From positions 1 to 64,000 of the forward strand of contig JAJPIG010000030.1 in the NCBI GenBank assembly GCA_021324855.1: a stretch of 64,000 nucleotides of DNA, in the 5' to 3' direction. This document shows positions 9,268 to 19,658 of this stretch, piece by piece (position 1 is the stretch's first letter; every line of letters begins with the position of its first letter). The notes under the pieces are model-generated. The model searched no databases. It saw only the letters and a list, made by a program, of their open reading frames with translations, and was not told the origin of the DNA. The position numbers and the translations under genes are program-made. The stretch is from Pseudomonadota bacterium (GTDB lineage Bacteria; Desulfobacterota; Binatia; Binatales; Binataceae).

Positions 9268-10593
9268 CTAGTAGTAATCGACCGGATCGATCTGCCGCTT
9301 GGCGCCCCAATAGAAGAGCATGTTCTCGGTCAGGCCCTGCCAGGTGAATTTTCCGGGCGGCATCAGCAGCCGCTTGAACATCGACTTGAGCGAATAAAAC
9401 TCCTTCGTGCAGCGCCAGACGCCTTCTTCGACCTGCTGCGGCGAAAGCTTCTTCGGCACGAACATGCATCGGAAGTTGTTGGTGTACATGTCCGCGTCGG
9501 GAATGATCACGCGGCCTTCCTTCTCGAGCATCGTGCGCATCGGGGTGCCCTTGCGCGGCGTCACAGTGTTGAAGAACGCTTCGGGCGCCTTGACTTCGTG
9601 GAGGAAGCGCAACGTTTCATCGAAGATTCCCGGATGGTCCTCTTCGAGGCCGAACAGGAAATTGAGCGAATAGTAGATGCCGTGCTTTTCCAGGCGCGCC
9701 AGCAGCTTCTTATACTGGTCGGCGTGGTTCTGAATCTTGTTCATCGACAGCAGGCTTTCTTGGCTAATCGATTCGACGCCGATATTGACGTGGAAAACGC
9801 CGGCCTTCGCCGCAAGTTCGAGCAGCTCCTCGTCGTGATTCGAGTTTACCGTCCACAGGCATGAGAAACGAATGTTAAGCGGGGCGAGCGCCTTGAACAG
9901 CTCCTTGGCGAACTTGTGCTTGCCGGTGATCTGATCGTCTATGAACTGGAAGCGGCGGAAGCCGGTAATTTTGATGGTTTGCTTGATCTCCTCGATGATG
10001 TCGCCGACCGGGCGGGTACGATAGCTGCCGTTGTAGAAGACCGGAATTTCGCAGAACGAGCAGCGGTACGGACATCCCCGGCTCGCCTGGACAGGCACCG
10101 CCTTGAAAAGGTAGCGATTCAGCTTCAGCAGTTCGTGGCGCGGGCGCGGCAGGTTTTTCAGATCGTGGAGCTTGTCGGACTTGTAGATGCGCTTGAGCTT
10201 GCCGTCGCGCCAGTCTTGCAGCAGCCCTTCCCAAACCAGATCGGCTTCGCCCTGCACCACCGCATCGGCATGCTTAAGCGCCTCTTCGGTCTGGAGCGTT
10301 GCGTGAAAACCGCCCATCACAACCGGGATGCCGCGGCGGCGGAATTCGTCGCCGAGTTGATAGGCGCGCAGCGATGCGCCGATAGTTGTAGTCATGCCGA
10401 CCAGATCCCAGCCGGCGTCGAAATCGATGTCCTCGAGGCGTTCGTCGCAGAGCGTGACGTCGTACTCGGGAGGCGTCAGTCCCGCCATCAGCGGGATCAT
10501 CAATCCCATGATGAGACGCCAGCGGGTCTTATGCGGCGTGTGGTCCAGATGAACGGTCGTGGGCTGGACCAGCAGAATGCGAGGTTTATTCAT
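9268..10593 (-). CDS. B12-binding-domain radical SAM protein
   Basis: 441 residues. ATG 10593 is preceded by GGAGG four bases upstream and overlaps the stop of the preceding phosphotransferase gene (ATGA). Residues ~1-150 form a cobalamin-binding-type Rossmann domain ([28 protein letters not shown]), lacking the DxHxxG motif. The radical SAM cluster is Cys174-x3-Cys178-x2-Cys181 in [12 protein letters not shown]; later NIGVESIS and [11 protein letters not shown] are typical SAM-barrel strands. Members often methylate unactivated carbons or rearrange lipids. It does not resemble HpnJ at its N-terminus. Operon position suggests it acts on the product of the phosphotransferase pathway. Confidence 0.85.
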
Positions 10594-11801
10594 GCTTCCT
10601 CCGCGATCGCGCAAGCTTTGGGCGAAGGCGCAGCGGCCTCCGCCTGCGGCATGTGCCGATCAGTCAACCACCAAAGCCCGAGAGCAAACACGTAACTACC
10701 AAACGCGGCTCCCCAAGCAAAGAACGCGAGTCGGTCCAGGATCGCGAGAATCACCAGAATATAGGCGAAGTCGCGTCCCGTGATACGATCGACCTTACCA
10801 ATCCATTCCTCGGCGTCCGGACCTTTCACCCTGAATGCGCGCGCCACCGAAATCGCGCAGAATCCGAAGCCGGTCAGCATGATCGCGATTAGATAGAGAT
10901 ACGCGACGCTGTGATGTGCGCGGTAGCATCCGGCGATCAGTCCGATGAAGACGCCGATGTTGACCAGATTGTCGGTCAGCTTGTCGAACATCCCGCCGAA
11001 TCTGGTCTCCACCATCTTGAGCCGCGCCACTTCGCCGTCGACACCGTCGAACACGATCGAGACGAGGAACATGATCGAGCCGAGGAGGCGTATCCAATAG
11101 CTGGTCGAGGCGAACATCGCGGCGGCCCCGAGGCCCAGGACCGTGTTGGCGAATGTCATCTGATTCGGCGTGACCCATGTGCGGGCGAGGTGGCGGCTGA
11201 TGCGCCATGAGAGATGTCGATCGAAACATCGCGCCAGGATTCCGTCGCTATCGAGGGTCTCCAACCGCAGCGACCGCGCCAATCTGATTTCGGCGCTGGT
11301 CGCATCTGACGGACGGCCGTTAAGGGCGAAGGGCAGGTAACGGTCTGCCGGCGTGGGAACCGACCGCGCGCCGTCACGCGCGAGCAGCATCCCAAACGGT
11401 CCGGCAGCAATCGTCGCCTCGCCAGTCTCGTCACGTACGCAAATCACCTCGCGTGAAACGTTGCTCGCATGCGATATCAACGTATTGAGCTGAAGCCGGC
11501 TCGCGACCACATTGGCGGCGAGCATCAGACACGGCTCGTTCGTAGAGAGCGGCGCCTTGGCGAGCGATTCGACCACTTTCACTTCGGGACGCCCGGCGAA
11601 CCGGCCCATTGCGATGGCGGCCTTGGCGCGCACAGCCGGATCGACCTCCACGATGAACCGATTAATGCCCGCGCGCTCGCACAGGATCATCAGACGCTCG
11701 AGGTTGGGGCGTCCGAAAATCGTTACGGCTCCGTGATCGGGAGCGGCGATCAGCGCAGTCTCAACCAAGGCATTCAAGGATGGACGGTTTCGAGCGGACA
11801 A
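10590..11801 (-). CDS. CDP-alcohol phosphatidyltransferase with an extra N-terminal nucleotidyltransferase-like domain
   Basis: 403 residues from a TTG start at 11801 (no good ribosome site, so the start is uncertain). The C-terminal half is a multi-pass membrane enzyme with the complete CDP-alcohol motif DG-x2-AR-x8-G-x3-D-x3-D at Asp255-Asp277. The first ~180 residues resemble a degenerate nucleotidyltransferase fold ([19 protein letters not shown]; no GxGxR loop), recalling the fused inositol-phosphate cytidylyltransferase/DIPP synthases. It would join an alcohol to a CDP-activated group in the membrane. It overlaps the radical SAM gene and is divergent from an active-looking nucleotidyltransferase cluster. 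Confidence 0.88.
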
Positions 11802-12025
11802 TCGCGCAATTAGGTGCCATTTCTCTGGTTCTGACCGAGCGGTCTGCCATAGTCAAGGCGACTGGGACGGGTTTGTCAACGGGGGGTTAACGATTACACC
11901 GATGTTTCGACGGCTTATCGAGTGATAGTGGCGATGTTACGGCGAGCTTAAATCGCGACAAGAGGGTCGCGGTTGCGCTCCGCTTCCTGTCGCAGGCTCC
12001 GGATGGTTGGTAAAATGAGGCCATC

Positions 12026-12772
12026 GTGGATGCGCCTTACGCGCTGCTGCTCGATTTCGGCGGTACGCTGGATGTGCCCCGGCATTGGCTCGACCGCTTT
12101 CTGGAGCATTACCGGGCGGCGGGCATTCCGCTCGATCGCGAACGCCTCGATGCTGCATACAGCCATGCGACGGCCCTCGGCTACCGCAACACAAGCTCAC
12201 TTCGCCGCTACGCGCTCGCGGAGATCGTCGAGTACCTGGTCAACCATCAACTCGACTGGCTGGCCGAATTCGGTCCGGAGGCGATCTTGAGGTCGCGTTT
12301 GGCCGGGGAAAGCCGGCGGCGCGAGCTGGCGCGCACGATCAGCGCCCGATTCGTCGCGGAATCGCTCGAAACTGTGGCCGGCACGCGCAAGCTGCTCGAA
12401 CTTCTTCACGATCGACATCGAATCGGTATCGTTTCGAACTTCTACGGCAATCTGCCGGTCGTTCTGGAGCAATGCGGCTTCGATCATTTCATTGATGTAG
12501 TCGTTGATTCTTCCGCGGCGGGGGTGTTCAAGCCTGACGCCGGAATCTTCATGATCGCGCTGCGCGAGCTGGGCGTCGCACCGCGGGACGCCGCGATGGT
12601 CGGCGATTCGCCTGACAAGGACCTCGCGCCGGCGCGCCGCCTTGGGATGCGGACGGTGTGGCTGCGGACCGTCGCGCAGGCTCGATCGATCGAGGATGAA
12701 GCCGACGACCCTGAACCGCCGGCCGACTATGTGATCGACGCTATCGCGCAATTGCGGGATCTCGTCTGGTGA
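12026..12772 (+). CDS. HAD-superfamily hydrolase with DxGGT motif
   Basis: 248 residues from GTG 12026, with GAGG five bases upstream. Motif I reads LLLDFGGTLD: nucleophile Asp10, but the usual acid/base Asp at +2 is Gly12. Motif II is IVSNFYG, motif III VFKPDAGIF and motif IV GDSPDKD, with a helical cap between I and II (subclass I). A -10-like TAAAAT lies at 12012-12017. The stop TGA shares one base with the next start, so this begins a tight operon. Phosphatase activity is likely but the motif change leaves it open. Confidence 0.85.
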   Translation: MDAPYALLLDFGGTLDVPRHWLDRFLEHYRAAGIPLDRERLDAAYSHATALGYRNTSSLRRYALAEIVEYLVNHQLDWLAEFGPEAILRSRLAGESRRRELARTISARFVAESLETVAGTRKLLELLHDRHRIGIVSNFYGNLPVVLEQCGFDHFIDVVVDSSAAGVFKPDAGIFMIALRELGVAPRDAAMVGDSPDKDLAPARRLGMRTVWLRTVAQARSIEDEADDPEPPADYVIDAIAQLRDLVW

Positions 12773-13491
12773 TGATTATCGACGGAGCGATTTTGGCCGC
12801 CGGCGCCGGCGAGCGTCTGCGCCCGACGGTAGGCCCGATTCCGAAACCGCTGGTCGCCATCGGCGGGCGTCCGCTGCTGCTGCGGCAGGCCGACGCGCTC
12901 CATCGCGCCGGTGCGCGCCGGGTCATGGCAATCGTGAATTCGGAAAGCGCAGGCCTGCTGGACGCGGATCGCATCGAGCTGCCGGACTATCTAAAGCTTT
13001 GCGTACGCGATACGGCGAATTCGATGGAATCGTTGTTCGCTCTGGCCAATCACGTTGAAAGCGATCGCTTTCTGCTCGCGACCGTCGATGCGGTCGTTGC
13101 TGAGTCCGAGCTTGCACGATTCGTCGCGGCTGCCGCGGAATCCACGATGCCAGGGCGTGAAGGGCGCTGCGACGGCGCGCTCGCGCTGGTGCGCTGGCGC
13201 GGCGACCGACGCCCATTGTTCGCCACGCTGCGCCAGGATCGGACTGTTGCAACGCTCGGTGACGGCGAGAGCACGCTCGTCACGGCAGGTTTCTATTTTC
13301 TCCCGAAACGAATTTTCGATTTCGTCCCGCAAGCCCGCGCGCTGGGGCTTGACGCGATGCGCCGGTTTCTCGCCATGCTGGTCGCCAAGGGCGTGCGGCT
13401 GCTGGGTTTCGAGATCATGGGCGCAATAGATATTGACGAGGGCGCTGACCTGGATGCGGCGCGCGCACTCGTAGAAGCCGGTAGTAAGTAA
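12772..13491 (+). CDS. Sugar- or alcohol-phosphate nucleotidyltransferase
   Basis: 239 residues; ATG 12772 overlaps the preceding TGA by one base (GTG 12769 is also possible). The NTP-binding loop LAAGAGERLRP is at residues 8-18 and PKP at 24-26; ATVDAVV probably gives a metal Asp, and the C-terminal IDIDEGADLDAA resembles choline-phosphate or inositol-phosphate cytidylyltransferases. It should activate a phosphorylated substrate with CTP or another NTP. With the divergent CDP-alcohol phosphotransferase this suggests a complete activate-and-transfer pair. Confidence 0.87.
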   Translation: MIIDGAILAAGAGERLRPTVGPIPKPLVAIGGRPLLLRQADALHRAGARRVMAIVNSESAGLLDADRIELPDYLKLCVRDTANSMESLFALANHVESDRFLLATVDAVVAESELARFVAAAAESTMPGREGRCDGALALVRWRGDRRPLFATLRQDRTVATLGDGESTLVTAGFYFLPKRIFDFVPQARALGLDAMRRFLAMLVAKGVRLLGFEIMGAIDIDEGADLDAARALVEAGSK

Positions 13492-13496
13492 TTCGT

Positions 13497-14309
13497 ATGT
13501 TGGCATTGGGAATTTATCGCGAGGCGCAATTTTCGCCGGGCAAGGTCGATGCCGATGCCGCGATTCTCGATCGCGCACTCGCTTCGCTTGCCGAGGCCGG
13601 CATCGAGACGGTAGCCGTCAGGCCGGATACCCATGATCGCTACCCGACCGGCGACATCGACCTGGTGCTTGCGATGTGCCAGGGCGAACGTCAACTCGAA
13701 CGGCTGGCGAGCTTTGAAAAAAGCGGAGCGCTGGTGATCAATTCCGCGCTCGCGATCCGCAACTGCTATCGCGACCTGCTCGGCGCCGGTCTGATGCGCG
13801 CCGGAGTGCCTGCGCCGCGTGGCCTCGTGATCGATCTCGCGACCGGCGAGCGGGATGTCACCGGACTCGACTCCGCACGCGGGCTTTACGTCAAACGCGG
13901 CGATCTTCACGCCTTGGGACCGGATGACGTTCAGCGGGTGGACGGCCCCGCGGCGCTCCAGGAAGCGCTCGAGAGTTTTGCGCGCCGCGCTGTGCGCCGG
14001 GTCTACATCCAGCAGGCGGTCTCGGGAACACTGGTGAAGTTTTACGGCGTGAGCGGCGGCGAGTACTTTGCTGCACTCCCTGAGTACGGCGCGCTTGCGC
14101 GTTCGCTCGAACTGGCGCTCCGTCAGGCAGCAGAGCGGGCGGCGGCGGCGCTCGGGCTCGAAGTCTGGGGCGGCGATGCGATCGTCAGCGGCGAGGATTT
14201 GACGATCGTCGATTTCAACGATTGGCCGAGTTTCAGCCGGGTGTGTGACGCCGCTGGTCCCGCGATCGCGCGCCGCGCGCGCTCCTTGCTCTGCCGGCGC
14301 GACCGTTGA
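13497..14309 (+). CDS. ATP-grasp-fold ligase (RimK-like)
   Basis: 270 residues, starting 5 nt after the nucleotidyltransferase stop. Visible ATP-grasp features are GLYVKRGD (nucleotide-binding Lys), VYIQQAVSGTLVKFYGV, and the metal-binding strand LTIVDFNDWPSF with Asp and Asn. These enzymes form amide or peptide bonds through an acyl phosphate. The N-terminal domain is not recognised and the substrate is unknown; the downstream aminotransferase could supply an amine. Confidence 0.8.
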   Translation: MLALGIYREAQFSPGKVDADAAILDRALASLAEAGIETVAVRPDTHDRYPTGDIDLVLAMCQGERQLERLASFEKSGALVINSALAIRNCYRDLLGAGLMRAGVPAPRGLVIDLATGERDVTGLDSARGLYVKRGDLHALGPDDVQRVDGPAALQEALESFARRAVRRVYIQQAVSGTLVKFYGVSGGEYFAALPEYGALARSLELALRQAAERAAAALGLEVWGGDAIVSGEDLTIVDFNDWPSFSRVCDAAGPAIARRARSLLCRRDR

Positions 14310-14386
14310 GCCATCCGGCGCCGAAGCGTTTGCCCGGTTCGCCATCTCGAAATCGCTCGCCGGTTCGCTATTATGAGGCGAACTGT

Positions 14387-15778
14387 ATGAAGACATCTCC
14401 CAAGAAAATTCCATTTTCAGATCGGACCGGCGATCTGCCGCAGGTCAATACCGAGATTCCCGGGCCCAAGTCTGCGCAGGTTTTTGCCGAAGAGCAGCGC
14501 TATGTGGCGCCCGGCCGCCAGCGCATTTCCGAGCTCGCCGGCGTCGCTTTCGAGCGCGGTGACGGCGCGACGCTGACCGACGTCGATGGCAACGTCTATC
14601 TCGACTTCTTCGCCGGCGTGGCAGTGGCGAGCCTCGGCCATGCCCATCCGGCCCTCGCGCGTGCGCTTGCCGATCAGGCGAATCGGCTGATCGTCGGCAC
14701 GTTCGCCACTCCCCAGCGCGCCGAAGGCTTCAAGCGCCTGAGCGAGGTCGCTCCCGGCCGGCTGCGGCGCCATCATCTCTACAGCGGCGGCGCGGAAGCG
14801 GTCGAAGCGGCGCTCAGGCTCGCGCGCTCCGTCACCAAGAAGCACGAGGTCGTGAGCTTCTGGGGTGGCTTCCATGGCAAGACCGCGGGCGTGCTCGGGC
14901 TTATCGGCGATGAATCGAAGCAGGGCTACGGTCCGCTGGCCGGCGGGCGCTACCAGGTGCCCTATGCCGACTGTTATCGATGCCCTTTCAAAATGACCCA
15001 TCCGGAATGCGGGATGTACTGCGTCGAGTTCGCGGCCGAGCAGGTCAAACGCAGTTCGGCGGGCGCGGTCGCCGCGGTTATCGTCGAACCGATGCAGGGG
15101 ACGGCCGGCAACGTGATACCGCCCGATGACTTCATGCCGGCGGTGAAGGAGCTGGCGCGCGACAACGATGCGCTGCTTATTGCCGATGAGATGATCACCG
15201 GGTTCGGCCGCACCGGCAAATGGTGGGGCATCGAGCATAGCGGCGTCGAGCCCGATATCATAACCGTAGGCAAGGGGATGGGCTCCGGGTTTCCGGTCTC
15301 CGGCGTGCTCCTCAGCGATGAGTTGGGCGAAGCCGAGCCGTTCGGAAAGCCCAGCGCCTCGTCGTCGAGCTATGGCGGTAATCCGCTGGCCGCGGTTGCG
15401 GTGGGCACGACCATCCAGACCATCCAGCGCGAGCGATTGGTCGAGAACTCGCGCGAGGTCGGGACGATCCTGCTGGATCGCCTGATGGCGCTGAAAGAAA
15501 AGTATCCGTTCGTCGGCGACGTCCGCGGGCGCGGCCTGATGATTGGTCTTGATCTGGTGCGCGATCGCGAGACGAGAGAACCGCTGGCGCGCCCGGTCAC
15601 CGAGACCATCTTCAAGGAATGCCTGCGGCGCGGCCTGGTTATTATGGGCTATTTCCCGCGCATCAGAATCAATCCGCCGCTCGTGATCACTGCGGCGCAG
15701 GCTGAAGCGGGCGCCGTCATTCTGGATGAAGTCTTCGCCCACGTGAGCGCGCATCTGGATTGGCGCGCCGCCCGCTAA
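14387..15778 (+). CDS. Class III (ornithine/GABA-type) PLP aminotransferase
   Basis: 463 residues from ATG 14387. Family features are YLDFFAGVAVASLGHAHP, YSGGAEAVEAALRLAR, SFWGGFHGKT, IVEPMQGTAGN, IADEMITGFGRTG, and the PLP-binding Lys in ITVGKGMGSGFP. There is a Cys-bearing insertion (CYRCPFKMTHPECGMYC) around residues 200-220. Class III enzymes move an amino group to an aldehyde or ketone. HpnO of the aminobacteriohopanetriol pathway is of this class, but nothing here proves that identity. It sits inside the HAD-nucleotidyltransferase-ATP-grasp operon. Confidence 0.9.
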   Translation: MKTSPKKIPFSDRTGDLPQVNTEIPGPKSAQVFAEEQRYVAPGRQRISELAGVAFERGDGATLTDVDGNVYLDFFAGVAVASLGHAHPALARALADQANRLIVGTFATPQRAEGFKRLSEVAPGRLRRHHLYSGGAEAVEAALRLARSVTKKHEVVSFWGGFHGKTAGVLGLIGDESKQGYGPLAGGRYQVPYADCYRCPFKMTHPECGMYCVEFAAEQVKRSSAGAVAAVIVEPMQGTAGNVIPPDDFMPAVKELARDNDALLIADEMITGFGRTGKWWGIEHSGVEPDIITVGKGMGSGFPVSGVLLSDELGEAEPFGKPSASSSSYGGNPLAAVAVGTTIQTIQRERLVENSREVGTILLDRLMALKEKYPFVGDVRGRGLMIGLDLVRDRETREPLARPVTETIFKECLRRGLVIMGYFPRIRINPPLVITAAQAEAGAVILDEVFAHVSAHLDWRAAR

Positions 15779-15787
15779 GTTTTCTCA

Positions 15788-16273
15788 ATGCCTGTCGAGA
15801 CCGGTAACCGCGGCCTCTTTCTCGACCTTGTCGGGACGCTCGTCAAGATGGACGAGACGCGGCAGTTGCCGCTCAGCCCGAATGGCGAGATCGTGATCGA
15901 GCTGATGCCGAACGTGGTCGAAAAACTCGCCCCGATCCGCAACCATCTGATTTTCGTGGTGTCCAATCAGGCCGGCATCAAGCGCGGCCGGCTCCGCGCT
16001 GAGGCGGTCGAAGCGGCGATGCGCGAACTCGACGAACGCCTGGGCGATATCCTGACCGGATGGCAGATCTGCCCGCACGACGAGAGCGACTGCTGCGAAT
16101 GCCGGAAGCCACGCAGTGGCATGATTACCGAACTCGCGCAGATTTATGGCGTCGACCTGCCGACCTCGACGATGGTCGGCGATCAGGAAGTCGATGCGCA
16201 AGCAGCGCACGCCGCGGGCGTCGGCCGCTTCGTCTACGCGAAAGATTTCTTCGGCTGGACTGAGAGCGTGTGA
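15788..16273 (+). CDS. GmhB-like HAD-IIIA protein lacking the second catalytic Asp
   Basis: 161 residues, 9 nt after the aminotransferase. Motif I reads FLDLVGTLV: Asp13 is present but the +2 acid/base Asp is Val15. FVVSNQAGIKRG (motif II), CRKP (motif III Lys107) and VGDQEVDAQAA (motif IV) are intact, as are the zinc ligands Cys95, His97, Cys103 and Cys105 typical of heptose-bisphosphate and histidinol phosphatases. It may be a slow or altered phosphatase or a phosphate-binding protein. It is the last gene of the five-gene run. Confidence 0.82.
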   Translation: MPVETGNRGLFLDLVGTLVKMDETRQLPLSPNGEIVIELMPNVVEKLAPIRNHLIFVVSNQAGIKRGRLRAEAVEAAMRELDERLGDILTGWQICPHDESDCCECRKPRSGMITELAQIYGVDLPTSTMVGDQEVDAQAAHAAGVGRFVYAKDFFGWTESV

Positions 16274-16423: not shown

Positions 16424-17710
16424 GTGAAACGTTTGCGCTTTTGGATTGCCCTGATGATTTTCATCCCGTGTCTGGCTGCGCTCCGCGCCCATGCGCAGGA
16501 GGAAGGCGGCATACCGGACGGCACCATTATCACGCTGCGAAACTGGCAGCAGTATCGTCAGTACATGCCGGACGGAATGCAGGAACTGTTCAAGGGCAGC
16601 TACCAGTGGAAGATTCCGCCCGAGTTCCAGATGATCGTCGGCCCGACGCATCATTACGCGCCGCCCAAACCTTATATCGAAGACACCGAAAAGTACGCCC
16701 ATAACGTCGGAATCAAAGACGACGCGGAAGGTCGTCATATATTGACTGGCTACGTTGCGGGGATGCCGTTCCCGAATCCGACCGAGCCGATGAAGGGATG
16801 GAAGGTACTGGTCAATCTCTGGTACGCGTACAACCCGGCGATCTATTGCGACGCGCAGGATTGGCTCTATTTCATGGATCGCTATCACAATCGGTCTTCG
16901 GAGAGCTTCATTGAGGTCTACCGCAAGCTCGATCACATCTCGGATACTGGCTTCCCGATTACCGATCCGCGTTCACGCGGAATCCAGTTCGCCGAATATC
17001 TCGAAGTGCTGACGCCCGAACAGGCACGTTACACCGCGCAGGTCGAGTTCTATTACAGCGATTTCGCGAAGGAAGAAGATCTTTTCCTGTTCGTGCCGGC
17101 GCTTCGCCGTTCATTGCGGCTGTCGTCGGCCGCGCGATGCAGCCCGGTTATCGGTAGCGATTACACGCAGGATGAAGCGCGCAACACGCTTTTCAATTCG
17201 ACGCCAGCGCGTTTCGATGCGAAATTCCTGCGTAATCAGAATGTGCTTTCGATGTCGCGGTCGAACGGGATGGTGTACCGCAATTACGACAATTTCTATC
17301 CGACCATCCTGATGCCGAAGCCCGCGGTGGGAAAGTGGGAGTTGCGGCCGACTCTGGTAATCGAGGTGCAGCGGATTCCTTCGCAGCGCAAGGGCTACTG
17401 CTATGGCAAAAAAGTCCTCTGGATCGACGCCGAAGGTTACAGCACGGATTGGGAAGATCTGTACGACGAAGACATGAAACTCTGGAAGACCGCCTACACC
17501 TCACAGATGGCGCGCGATATGCCGCCGTACGGTCTCCAGCTCAACACCGGCGATCAATTCAGCGTTATGTATGATCTGCAGAACAGCCATCTGTCGTTCT
17601 ACAATTCTGGCGGCCGGACGAACGGCGAATGCAAGAACTACGATGGTCTCGACTTCACCGATCTGACTCGCTATTCGAGTGTCGCGGGGCTCAGTCAGAT
17701 CATGCGGTGA
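16424..17710 (+). CDS. Secreted DUF1329 protein
   Basis: 428 residues from GTG 16424 (GAGG nine bases upstream). The signal peptide ends near ALRAHAQ. The mature chain has the DUF1329 pattern of Tyr/Trp-rich strands (YYSDFAKEEDLFLFVPALRRSLRLSS, WDLxD-like segments) and a conserved Cys pair. DUF1329 proteins are envelope proteins of unknown function with a LolB/LppX-like lipid-carrier fold and are frequent near fatty-acid and steroid catabolism genes. A 150-base gap separates it from the HAD gene, so it may be its own unit. Confidence 0.85.
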   Translation: MKRLRFWIALMIFIPCLAALRAHAQEEGGIPDGTIITLRNWQQYRQYMPDGMQELFKGSYQWKIPPEFQMIVGPTHHYAPPKPYIEDTEKYAHNVGIKDDAEGRHILTGYVAGMPFPNPTEPMKGWKVLVNLWYAYNPAIYCDAQDWLYFMDRYHNRSSESFIEVYRKLDHISDTGFPITDPRSRGIQFAEYLEVLTPEQARYTAQVEFYYSDFAKEEDLFLFVPALRRSLRLSSAARCSPVIGSDYTQDEARNTLFNSTPARFDAKFLRNQNVLSMSRSNGMVYRNYDNFYPTILMPKPAVGKWELRPTLVIEVQRIPSQRKGYCYGKKVLWIDAEGYSTDWEDLYDEDMKLWKTAYTSQMARDMPPYGLQLNTGDQFSVMYDLQNSHLSFYNSGGRTNGECKNYDGLDFTDLTRYSSVAGLSQIMR

Positions 17711-17785
17711 TAGGCGGCGGGAGACGCGGCAGCAGGGCGGGATCGCGGCTTGCTCATGGTCTTTGCACAACCCGGAGGCTAACCA

Positions 17786-18643
17786 ATGAAGATCGGGCTG
17801 CTTGCGTTCACTCTCGTCGACGGCATTCATCCGGCCGCGCTGGCGCAGAAATGCGAGGCGCTGGGCTTCGACCTGCTGGTCTTCCCCGAGCATCCGGTAA
17901 TCCCGACCGAGACGCGCACGCCGTTTCCGCGCGCCGACGGCAAGATTCCGGATTTCTACTACCACTGCCCCGACCCGTTCGTGAGCATCGCGCTCGCGGC
18001 GGCAGCGACCAGCCGAATCCGTATCGGCACCGGAATCCTGCTGGTGCCGGAGCACAACCCGATTAACGTGGCGAAGGAGCTCGCCACCCTCGACCATTAT
18101 TCGAACGGCCGCCTGTTCGTCGGAATCGGTGCAGGGTGGCTTCGCGAGGAGGTCGAAATTTTCGGAGTCGACTTCCGCCGGCGATGGCCGCTCACGCGCG
18201 AGTATGTCCGCGCGATCAAGGAATTGTGGACGCGCGAGGACGCGAGTTTCAGCGGCGAGTTCCTCAAGTTTGCGGCCGTGCGATGCAATCCCAAGCCCGT
18301 GCAAAAGCCGCATCCGCCAATAATCGTCGGCGCCGCCGGCGAGCGCGCGCTGAAAAATACGGTCGCAATCGGCAACGGCTGGATGCCGCTGGAACGGTCT
18401 CCTGATCAACTCAAATCCGAGCTCGCCAGGATGCGCGCGATGTGCGCCGAAGCGGGGCGGCGTTTCGAGGACCTCGAGATTTCGGTGACGTTTGCGGGCG
18501 CTCGAAAATCCAACCCTCGCGAGTTGATCGAGCGTTATCGCGAAGCCGGAGCCCACCGGCTGATTCTCAATACTCCCCCGCTCGCGAGTGAGAACGCGGA
18601 CCGCGCGCTGGAGACGATGGCGAACGATTGGATCCTGCGTTGA
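17786..18643 (+). CDS. LLM-class F420/flavin-dependent oxidoreductase
   Basis: 285 residues, ATG 17786 with GGAGG seven bases upstream. The luciferase-like TIM barrel is visible in RIRIGTGILLVPEHNPINVAKELATLDHYSNGRLFVGIGAGW and PPIIVGAAGERALK. The sequence fits the probable-F420-dependent LLM subfamily rather than FMN luciferases. Whether this organism makes F420 is not shown here. The substrate is unknown. The Gfo/Idh/MocA gene follows after 22 nt, likely the same transcript. Confidence 0.88.
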   Translation: MKIGLLAFTLVDGIHPAALAQKCEALGFDLLVFPEHPVIPTETRTPFPRADGKIPDFYYHCPDPFVSIALAAAATSRIRIGTGILLVPEHNPINVAKELATLDHYSNGRLFVGIGAGWLREEVEIFGVDFRRRWPLTREYVRAIKELWTREDASFSGEFLKFAAVRCNPKPVQKPHPPIIVGAAGERALKNTVAIGNGWMPLERSPDQLKSELARMRAMCAEAGRRFEDLEISVTFAGARKSNPRELIERYREAGAHRLILNTPPLASENADRALETMANDWILR

Positions 18644-18665
18644 CGAGCCGTCGTATCGGCTCCCG

Positions 18666-19658
18666 ATGAAGCTGCGCGGCGCGATAGCCGGCTTCGGCGC
18701 GGTCGCCGCCGAGGGCCATTTACCGGGATGGGCGTCGCGGCCTGAAATTCAAATTGCCGCAATCTGCGATCCGGTTGCCGATCGGCGTCATCATGCGTTC
18801 CGAATCCTGAAGGGCGTGCGGGTTTACGATGATCTCAGCCTGATGCTCGAAGGTGAGCGGCCGGACTTTGTCGATGTTGCGAGTCCGCCCGCGATGCATG
18901 CGTCGGCGGCGCGCGCCGCTTTGGAGGCGGGCGCGCATGTGCTAGTTGAGAAGCCGCTCTGCCTCGACCTAACCGAATTCGATTCGCTTGCTGACCTGGC
19001 GCGCAGCCGCGGGCGCGTCCTGATGTGCGTGCTCAATTGGAAGCATTCGCCGGCCTACCGGCGCGCCCATGAGATCATCTCATCAGGCAGGCTCGGCAAG
19101 GTTCGCGAAGTAACATTCGATCGTTTGCGCACCGCGCCTGCGGGTGGGACGGGACCGGGCGCGCGATGGCGTCGCGATCCGGCACTGGGTGGCGGGATTC
19201 TAATCGATCACGGATGGCATACGCTGTACCTGGCCCAGTGGCTAATGGGCGGTGACGCGCCGCGGCTGGTCGCATCGCGCCTGGCCGGCGAGTCCGCCGG
19301 CAATGCTGAGGAGGTTGCCGACCTTGAACTCGCGTTTCCCGGCGATCGGCGCGCGTCGATTCATCTTTCATGGCGCGCCGCCCAGCGCCGCACGTCGGCA
19401 TCGATTAAGGGAGAGCTCGGGACCCTCGATTTGGACGGCAATTCGCTCCGGCTCACGGTCGCAGGGGCATCGGAAGACTTTTCGGTTGGCGACGCGCCTG
19501 ATGACTCGTATCACGCTGCATGGTTCGGATCGCTGGCGGCGGAATTCGAGCAGGCGATCGTGCTGGGCGACAACATCGCAGCTAAAAACCTTGGCGAAGC
19601 GCGCAGCGCACTCACGATCATCATCGAAGCCCGCCGGGCGGCAGGCGCGGGCAGCTAG
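18666..19658 (+). CDS. Gfo/Idh/MocA-family oxidoreductase
   Basis: 330 residues from ATG 18666. The Rossmann start GAIAGFGAVAAEGHLPGW, VDVASPPAMHASAARAALEAGAHVLVEKPL (the conserved EKP catalytic Lys) and GGGILIDHGWH (catalytic Asp-x3-His region) identify the family. These enzymes oxidise or reduce sugars, inositols and similar polyols with NAD(P). It ends convergent to the next gene. Confidence 0.9.
   Translation: MKLRGAIAGFGAVAAEGHLPGWASRPEIQIAAICDPVADRRHHAFRILKGVRVYDDLSLMLEGERPDFVDVASPPAMHASAARAALEAGAHVLVEKPLCLDLTEFDSLADLARSRGRVLMCVLNWKHSPAYRRAHEIISSGRLGKVREVTFDRLRTAPAGGTGPGARWRRDPALGGGILIDHGWHTLYLAQWLMGGDAPRLVASRLAGESAGNAEEVADLELAFPGDRRASIHLSWRAAQRRTSASIKGELGTLDLDGNSLRLTVAGASEDFSVGDAPDDSYHAAWFGSLAAEFEQAIVLGDNIAAKNLGEARSALTIIIEARRAAGAGS

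Follow-up and report, generated by a model that had tools for sequence, protein, structure and literature searches.

The closest described relative of the locus analysed here is the "putative alternative inositol lipid cluster" of Bacteroides vulgatus and Prevotella (BVU_RS13095, 13105 and 13115; Heaver 2022, PMC9246714). According to the passages of that paper that treat the cluster, B. vulgatus and P. veroralis, although lacking the B. thetaiotaomicron genes, produce inositol lipid, and a gene for myo-inositol-phosphate synthase (MIPS) usually, not universally, lies beside it, with P. copri among the exceptions. The same passages assign to B. thetaiotaomicron BT_1522-1526 a similarly MIPS-derived inositol lipid, which differs in being made by a PIP synthase/PgpA-type route. 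The term ATP-grasp does not occur in this paper (PMC9246714), and the alternative route is called predicted, not fully characterised, in the relevant part of a 2023 review (PMC10191378).

The di-myo-inositol phosphate pathway of hyperthermophiles (IPCT-DIPPS) shares with this locus the logic of CDP-inositol and the joining of a nucleotidyltransferase-fold domain to a CDP-alcohol phosphotransferase (CDP-OH) domain. Here, in contrast, the joined N-terminal domain has that fold in the structure model and shows no G-x-G-x-R...K catalytic signature in the alignment; a separate nucleotidyltransferase gene (NTP) bears the signature, and genes for a GFO/IDH/MocA dehydrogenase (GFO), an aminotransferase and an ATP-grasp protein are extra. 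Streptomycin-type aminocyclitol biosynthesis uses the StrI dehydrogenase, the StsC aminotransferase and the StrN kinase. The sequence proposed below resembles it in its GFO-family dehydrogenase and in its course from inositol via inosose and inosamine to inosamine phosphate, and differs in that a class III aminotransferase (AT3) and an ATP-grasp protein would replace those enzyme types and the proposed product is a lipid head group. To our knowledge, the known inosose aminotransferases are not of class III.

The locus occupies positions 9268-16273 of the window, a 64,000-nucleotide stretch from an uncultured soil bacterium of Binatota/Binataceae type, with the GFO gene beyond it (Table 1). The original prediction knew of no named pathway with this gene set, but its core (NTP, ATP-grasp, CDP-OH and a HAD phosphatase, HAD1) is homologous to, and equals, the published predicted inositol lipid cluster. 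The features of that cluster found here are: the NTP signature; the CDP-OH motif DX2DGX2AR...GX3DX3D; a HAD gene in the cluster; and MIPS in the genome. In the relative Phocaeicola sartorii (L155), ATP-grasp lies between NTP and CDP-OH, and a HAD1 homologue is present in the Bacteroidales cluster. The Binatota version differs in its added GFO and AT3 genes, its unlinked MIPS gene and the lack of a match at the level of serine palmitoyltransferase (SPT). This addition of AT3 and GFO points to an amino-inositol (inosamine) phospholipid.

Gene content and inheritance

Table 1. Genes of the locus and the associated dehydrogenase gene, with positions in the window
Feature	Position	Strand	Remarks
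B12-type radical SAM	9268..10614	-	conserved neighbour, probably not a pathway member
CDP-alcohol phosphotransferase (CDP-OH)	10590..11801	-	Pfam PF01066; proposed transfer of CDP-activated head group to lipid
HAD1, HAD-family phosphatase (proposed inositol-phosphate phosphatase)	12026..12772	+	Pfam PF00702
Nucleotidyltransferase NTP (proposed CTP:(amino)inositol-phosphate cytidylyltransferase)	12769..13491	+	NTP_transf_3
ATP-grasp (proposed kinase of inositol or aminoinositol)	13497-14309	+	weak RimK/LysX matches, predicted fold
Class III aminotransferase AT3 (proposed inosose aminotransferase)	14306..15778	+	PF00202; likely start near 14390
Second HAD (HAD-IIIA, HisB/GmhB-like)	15788..16273	+	conserved neighbour, probably not a pathway member
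GFO/IDH/MocA dehydrogenase (proposed inositol dehydrogenase)	18588..19658	+	likely start near 18666; outside first-listed locus

All seven originally listed open reading frames are present, and HAD1 overlaps NTP by 4 bases. In profile searches, Pfam cut-offs are reached for radical SAM/B12-binding, CDP-OH_P_transf, HAD, NTP_transf_3 and Aminotran_3; the ATP-grasp protein is seen through its weak matches and predicted fold. Separation of the genes in relatives had been named beforehand as grounds for rejecting the set. They do stay together, in a gene order that is kept across Binataceae-type genomes and not due to chance. ATP-grasp was detected in 37 of the 41 genomes of the family. Locus counts refer to 29 loci, those of the window and of 28 of the 36 other ATP-grasp-positive family genomes (the eight omitted are on contigs of 5-25 kb), and are lower bounds, as two of the 29 run into contig ends. 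HAD1 (once as a fragment) and ATP-grasp occur in all 29, NTP in 28, AT3 and the radical SAM gene in 26 each, and CDP-OH and the second HAD in 25 each.

Three near-complete Binataceae genomes of two genera (G027, G029 and G030; 94-96% complete) have lost the core or retain it in decayed form, and they also lack MIPS, GFO and AT3; the other ATP-grasp genomes of the family (n = 36) carry GFO in 36 cases, AT3 in 36 and MIPS in 34. Across the family, AT3 is present in 38 of 41 genomes, missing from these three only, and GFO in 37, missing additionally from the 53%-complete G038. An initial scan of the genome contigs with the CDP-OH protein gave no match. CDP-OH has no match in G027, G029 or the 83%-complete G017, and G030 has a shortened copy. 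The original view of the genes as one coherent biosynthetic unit, inherited together, is supported.

Membership of all seven genes in this unit is not supported. Of the 41 family genomes, 40 carry the radical SAM gene (83-93% identity to the window), and among these 40 are the three that have lost or degraded the core. The second HAD lies about 400 bp from it in G027 and 640 bp in G029, with the five intervening genes gone, and also persists at the locus in G030; it occurs in none of the 16 loci of other Binatia families. As both genes stay in the three core-losing genomes, they are probably neighbours outside the pathway, and a role for the radical SAM protein in deoxygenation or ring chemistry is rejected on the same ground, as is pathway membership of the second HAD. 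The extent is redrawn: GFO belongs with the set, and these two genes do not behave as if they did. The best solved relative of the radical SAM protein is AprD4; its score against the hopanoid HpnJ model (TIGR03471; 79.3 of 577.6 bits) leaves the cut-off unreached, and hopanoid cyclitol-ether chemistry is rejected accordingly. For the second HAD, the cut-offs reached are those of Hydrolase_like and PNK3P in Pfam and of TIGR01656 and TIGR01662 in NCBIfam. A relative of the radical SAM protein (43% identical) sits inside the L123 cluster, the sole point in favour of membership for this protein.

MIPS is encoded elsewhere in the window's own genome (contig C4) and occurs in 35 of 41 family genomes, yet in 0/29 family loci. 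Class-wide, it is found in 48 of 53 genomes with ATP-grasp vs 26 of 95 without (plain counts, kinship ignored); the five ATP-grasp genomes of the class in which it was not detected are G012, G030, G037, G145 and G147. Bacteroidales supply 59 of the 80 ATP-grasp loci retained; there, CDP-OH accompanies it in 58, HAD in 54, NTP in 52 and MIPS in 38, with MIPS elsewhere in the genome for 17 of the 21 that lack it in the locus. Adjoining MIPS was also found in three further records: a Syntrophobacterales-titled MAG (L122) has the same-strand run MIPS-HAD1-NTP-ATPgrasp-AT3-GFO-flippase, and the MAGs L124 and L177, whose titles name Bdellovibrionales and Bacteriovorax, have GFO-MIPS-ATPgrasp-CDPOH plus HAD1, NTP and AT3.

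The proposed route and its enzymes

The analysis shows which genes are present and in what order, that they occur and are lost together, and that catalytic motifs are conserved; the substrates of all steps, their sequence, the role of ATP-grasp as a kinase and the lipid product are inferred. We give about even odds to a CDP-head-group (Kennedy-like) route whose product is a phospholipid headed by amino-inositol. In order, the proposed steps would be: formation of inositol 3-phosphate by the distantly encoded MIPS; its dephosphorylation by HAD1; oxidation of inositol to inosose by GFO; conversion of the inosose ketone to an amine by AT3; phosphorylation of aminoinositol by ATP-grasp; formation of CDP-aminoinositol by NTP; and transfer of phospho-aminoinositol to diacylglycerol by the membrane CDP-alcohol phosphotransferase. 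The broader original idea, that the product is a modified polar lipid whose head group contains nitrogen, is supported as probable. For this head group, an amino-cyclitol appears more likely than a simple amino-alcohol.

In profile searches, inositol enzymes are the best or near-best characterised relatives of three proteins: inositol-1-phosphate cytidylyltransferases for NTP; IPCT-DIPPS and PIP synthases for CDP-OH; and ITPK4 for ATP-grasp. NTP has invariant G12-x-G14-x-R16 and K26 (17 sequences), and its profile matches the inositol-1-phosphate cytidylyltransferases 4jd0 and 2xme over their full length; RmlA, 4jd0 and mannose-1-phosphate guanylyltransferases are tied in this search, and with the window protein as lone query, heptose-pathway and MurU enzymes rank ahead of 2xme. 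In CDP-OH, D252-x2-D255-G-x2-A-R260-x8-G269-x3-D273-x3-D277 is invariant among 18 aligned sequences, and the score against the BT1523 model NF052561 is below cut-off (30.5 of 350 bits). Motif I of HAD1 has Gly where a second Asp is usual. GFO has invariant E-K-P and D-x3-H (11 sequences), which we take to be the catalytic motif of IolG/StrI-like inositol dehydrogenases of this family. Among solved structures, GFO comes closest to general sugar oxidoreductases, and its best NCBIfam name, inositol 2-dehydrogenase (TIGR04380), is far below cut-off at 72.4 of 355 bits.

ATP-grasp may act as a kinase, as proposed above, or as a ligase. The window protein matches no Pfam family at E 0.001 and falls below the RimK-type cut-off TIGR00768 (27 of 143.4 bits). 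A carboxylate-amine ligase that couples the amine to an amino acid or another acid is an unlikely reading, though one with a real chance. It would fit the predicted fold, nearest to RimK (Z 22.9) with LysX and ArgX also near among the best 50 fold matches; the narrower profile, in which a LysX/ArgX chain ranks first, above ITPK; and the Pfam RimK matches of three among 18 members, the strongest at E 0.0007. The profile of 18 diverse relatives instead has AtITPK4 as best solved match (E 2.1e-6, C-terminal third only), with RimK at E 0.0025 over most of the length. Of the invariant residues K133, K181, D227 and D239-x-N241, the last form a D-x-N metal site as in the aligned ITPKs vs E-x-N in aligned D-Ala ligase and RimK. 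A further argument against the ligase is that ATP-grasp occurs in all 59 Bacteroidales loci, none of which has a class III aminotransferase. Pfam PF05770 is matched by 3 of 18 members, with a best E of only 0.02, and the absence of ITPK from the best 50 fold matches is not counted as evidence. The original suggestion of extension by an amino acid is not supported by the Bacteroidales loci or by the profile of diverse relatives, though the fold is nearest to RimK-type ligases.

Alternative products

It is also unlikely that the core makes plain phosphatidylinositol by the CDP-inositol route predicted for B. vulgatus, with GFO and AT3 serving another amino compound or a decoration. Such a division would suit the Bacteroidales loci, which carry the core with MIPS and neither GFO nor class III aminotransferase (0/59 each), as well as the position of GFO, 2.8 kb past the aminotransferase in the window and part of the examined locus in no more than nine of the 29 family loci. 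It is opposed by the recurrence of AT3 in 26/29 family loci and all 16 loci of other Binatia families, 15 of which have GFO adjoining the aminotransferase, and by the joint absence of GFO and AT3 from the three near-complete genomes with a lost or decayed core.

An amino-hexose or other amino-polyol head group, with no inositol derivative, is distinctly improbable: GFO and NTP do belong to broad sugar-enzyme families, but MIPS stands in the run or cluster in the Bacteroidales, Syntrophobacterales- and Bdellovibrionales/Bacteriovorax-titled records, and is lost together with the core, and NTP, CDP-OH and ATP-grasp all have relatives of inositol type. Very unlikely is a soluble solute of the di-inositol-phosphate type, in which CDP-OH would couple inositol phosphate with CDP-(amino)inositol and HAD1 strip the extra phosphate: in NCBIfam, CDP-OH scores best with the model of the bifunctional IPCT/DIPP synthase, at 81.7 bits vs a cut-off of 580, and its structure model (pLDDT 84.1) fits IPCT-DIPPS (4mnd) with Z 23.3, but AF2299 (Z 23.4) is tied and PIP synthase fits nearly as well, B. 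vulgatus and P. veroralis, with the alternative cluster only, make inositol lipid according to the cluster passages of PMC9246714, and in L122-L124, as in 14 of the 16 loci from other Binatia families, flippase-like LPG_synthase_TM genes lie beside the core.

Reach of the amino-inositol reading and the lipid anchor

The amino-inositol phospholipid has wider consequences, which we put forward tentatively, as one joint reading somewhat short of an even chance: this lipid class would be made by Binatota and by lineages whose titles name Syntrophobacterales, Desulfarculales, Bdellovibrionales and Bacteriovorax; its makers would employ two types of enzyme not known for such chemistry, an inosose aminotransferase of class III and an inositol monokinase of the ATP-grasp kind; and ATP-grasp would supply the missing step to CDP-inositol in gut Bacteroidales, HAD and ATP-grasp together moving the phosphate from the MIPS to the lipid position. 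A targeted literature phrase search found no report of an inosamine lipid, and neither inositol nor phospholipid occurs in the Binatota genome paper (PMC8262859). If true, the reading predicts a class of lipid head group for which that search gave no report, a zwitterionic inositol lipid that would alter membrane charge relative to phosphatidylinositol, and proposes a job for the ATP-grasp gene that gut Bacteroidales carry in their predicted inositol lipid cluster.

As to the anchor, diacylglycerol is likely, since no family genome has an SPT-level match; a sphingolipid anchor is rejected for the family on this one SPT model (NF047600). The best score among the 41 family genomes is 384 bits (G025), and 0 of 148 class genomes exceed the 640-bit cut-off of the model, which is of Bacteroidetes type and could miss a divergent SPT. 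The published suggestion, in the passages on this cluster, that the HAD converts PI-DAG to PI-dihydroceramide (PMC9246714) is at odds with genomes that keep HAD1 and have no SPT-level match. By our own 500-bit mark, 22 of the 148 class genomes are SPT-like, and two of these carry ATP-grasp (G069 and G074).

Conservation of the gene set in Binatia

The gene set is real and co-inherited. ORFs and family searches of the window (contig C23 of G000, a 3.7 Mb genome) bear out the seven genes of the original prediction at the coordinates tabulated here. Spacing from HAD1 to the second HAD is operon-like: HAD1 and NTP overlap by 4 bases, and gaps of 5 and 9 bases separate NTP from ATP-grasp and AT3 from the second HAD. 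The neighbouring CDP-OH and radical SAM genes lie on the opposite strand. The usual order in Binataceae has radical SAM/CDP-OH diverging from HAD1-NTP-ATPgrasp-AT3-HAD3, as seen in the window and 28 wide loci drawn from 28 of the 36 other ATP-grasp-positive family genomes. ATP-grasp was found by genome search in 37/41 family and 53/148 class genomes.

Coordinates of the features discussed (window positions unless a locus is named)
Feature	Position	Strand	Remark
Radical SAM, B12-type	9268-10614	-	
CDP-OH (CDP-alcohol phosphotransferase)	10590-11801	-	
HAD1	12026-12772	+	
NTP (nucleotidyltransferase)	12769-13491	+	
ATP-grasp	13497-14309	+	
AT3 (class III aminotransferase)	14306-15778	+	
HAD3 (second HAD)	15788-16273	+	
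DUF1329 and luciferase-like genes	16424-18643		between second HAD and GFO
GFO (GFO/IDH/MocA dehydrogenase)	18588-19658		3' of the DUF1329 and luciferase-like genes
Empty site of the G027/G029 pair	L212:7911-10107		
Empty site of the G027/G029 pair	L213:9362-11758		
Radical SAM relative	L123:7191-8510		Desulfarculales-titled MAG
HpnH-like protein, G030	L050:12303-13310		

Outside Binataceae, five of the seven genes keep together: 16/16 loci of other Binatia families hold HAD1, NTP, ATP-grasp and AT3 along with a CDP-OH. The second HAD occurs in 0/16 of these loci and none has a close radical SAM (five weak matches, 66-79 bits). GFO is present in 15 of the 16, and a flippase-like LPG_synthase_TM gene in 14. 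Within Binataceae, GFO falls inside the fetched locus in 9/29 cases and is encoded somewhere in the genome in 37/41. The DUF1329 protein of the window is accompanied by an F420-type luciferase-like oxidoreductase, a match seen again in 20/29 family loci. Two family genomes (G008 and G020) carry an additional, more distant CDP-OH paralogue.

Co-loss and co-occurrence with MIPS

Three family genomes at least 94% complete lack an intact core (G027, G029 and G030). In G027 and G029 there are natural empty sites: radical SAM adjoins the second HAD at a distance of ~400 bp and ~640 bp, respectively, and none of the five intervening genes is detectable between them by tblastn. In G030, which shares a genus with G029, the core has decayed. 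ATP-grasp and the second HAD remain, CDP-OH is truncated with the first half of its motif gone, HAD1 is a fragment, NTP was not found at the locus, and AT3 was not found. All three genomes retain radical SAM.

At the thresholds used, myo-inositol-phosphate synthase (MIPS), GFO and AT3 are all undetected genome-wide in these three genomes and are present in 34/36, 36/36 and 36/36, respectively, of the other ATP-grasp family genomes; the three genomes count as no more than two or three separate loss events, and Fisher values for co-loss are indicative only. Two incomplete genomes were left out of this comparison: G038 (53% complete), missing ATP-grasp, MIPS and GFO and keeping AT3, CDP-OH and radical SAM, and G017 (83%), missing ATP-grasp, CDP-OH and radical SAM and keeping MIPS, GFO and AT3. 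In G012 and G037 the core is present and MIPS was not detected. Class-wide, MIPS occurs in 48/53 genomes with ATP-grasp versus 26/95 without (Fisher test, kinship ignored).

Relation to a predicted inositol lipid cluster

An ATP-grasp profile scan of named genomes gave at least 591 confirmed stretches (two patterns; stretches, not a gene count). The best 80 loci, which were kept, comprise 59 from Bacteroidales, 17 Binatota-like and four others (L122, L123, L124 and L177). Among these best 80, the commonest Bacteroidales order is NTP-ATPgrasp-CDPOH-HAD; MIPS is in the same locus in 38/59 and elsewhere in the genome in 17 of the remaining 21, and a flippase-like gene was detected in 5/59.

These Bacteroidales loci are the putative alternative inositol lipid cluster that Heaver et al. 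2022 (PMC9246714) put forward on the basis of B. vulgatus and Prevotella. There, the NTP transferase (RS13095) is proposed to form CDP-inositol and CDP-OH (RS13105) to form PI, alongside a HAD (RS13115). Since these tags step by five, RS13100 is probably the ATP-grasp, as judged from L155 (Phocaeicola sartorii); the paper nowhere uses the term ATP-grasp. A passage in a 2023 review still terms the route predicted in silico (PMC10191378). The original prediction of a pathway without known counterpart thus gives way, for the core, to correspondence with this published cluster. The Binatota set is a variant of it with putative substrates and product, and differs in its extra amination branch. Confidence in the proposed amino-inositol lipid route is moderate, slightly lowered by the single-query ranking of NTP and the partial coverage of the ITPK4 match.

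The branch also occurs in other lineages. In L122 (Syntrophobacterales-titled), MIPS, HAD1, NTP, ATP-grasp, AT3, GFO and a flippase-like gene are consecutive on a single strand. L124 and L177 (Bdellovibrionales- and Bacteriovorax-titled) group GFO, MIPS, ATP-grasp and CDP-OH, with HAD1 and NTP on the opposite strand, then AT3. L123 clusters CDP-OH, flippase, radical SAM, HAD1, NTP, ATP-grasp, AT3 and GFO; it has no MIPS in the locus, yet two MIPS matches in its genome. Most simply, GFO and an aminotransferase on an inositol pathway would form a ring ketone and then aminate it. In the streptomycin pathway the inositol ring is oxidised and aminated in this way.

Candidate enzymes, probable lipid anchor and radical SAM

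The NTP signature is intact across 17 relatives. The NTP profile matches RmlA 1lvw (6.8e-16), T. maritima 4jd0 (7.3e-16), mannose-1-phosphate guanylyltransferases (1.1e-15) and 2xme (4e-15). Both inositol enzymes, 4jd0 and 2xme, align over almost its whole length; the former is an inositol-1-phosphate cytidylyltransferase according to PMC12275187. With the window NTP as single query, 6-deoxy-heptose-pathway and MurU enzymes rank above 2xme.

CDP-OH has a complete catalytic motif. Its predicted model (pLDDT 84.1) best matches AF2299 (Z 23.4, 318 aligned, rmsd 3.9), followed by IPCT-DIPPS (Z 23.3, 340, 4.5) and PIP synthase 5d91 (Z 20.4, 312, 3.2); the N-terminal part resembles cytidylyltransferases (PntC, Z 15.9) without their signature. 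The ATP-grasp model (pLDDT 91.9) is nearest in fold to RimK and LysX. A profile of 18 diverse relatives ranks ITPK4 first (2.1e-6, covering only positions 167-265 of 271), then the PsnB-type ATP-grasp 7drm (2.2e-5), with RimK at 0.0025; a Binataceae-only profile places ArgX (0.011) ahead of ITPK4 (0.047).

In GFO, the motifs E-K-P and D-x3-H are invariant, and general sugar oxidoreductases are the nearest solved chains. HAD1 has invariant Asp10 and Lys169; in motif I, Gly occupies the second position. The nearest solved chain to AT3 is a hypothetical GABA aminotransferase, with broad racemases next. AT3 also contains four cysteines (C223, C226, C235 and C239, ORF numbering), conserved over 15 sequences taken from the clusters of Binatia, L122, L123, L124 and L177.

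The serine palmitoyltransferase (SPT) model NF047600 reached its 640-bit cut-off in 0/148 class genomes. Scores fall in two groups, above 500 bits in 22/148 and lower, BioF-like, in the remainder; four Binatia matches scored above cut-off as BioF. Two ATP-grasp genomes (G069 and G074) belong to the higher group. Because SPT scores are low in Binataceae (best 384 bits), diacylglycerol is the likely acceptor, barring a divergent SPT missed by the model.

Radical SAM occurs in 40/41 family genomes, where it is 83-93% identical to the copy in the window. It is conserved far more strongly than its neighbours and scores below the cut-off of every NCBIfam model among the matches listed. A 43% identical relative lies inside the inositol-type cluster of L123, and given this copy, radical SAM may be linked to the pathway in other lineages. 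In G030, about 1 kb beyond the second HAD that its decayed cluster retains, lies a protein that we take to resemble the hopanoid radical SAM HpnH, with a prenyl-synthase-like ORF close by.
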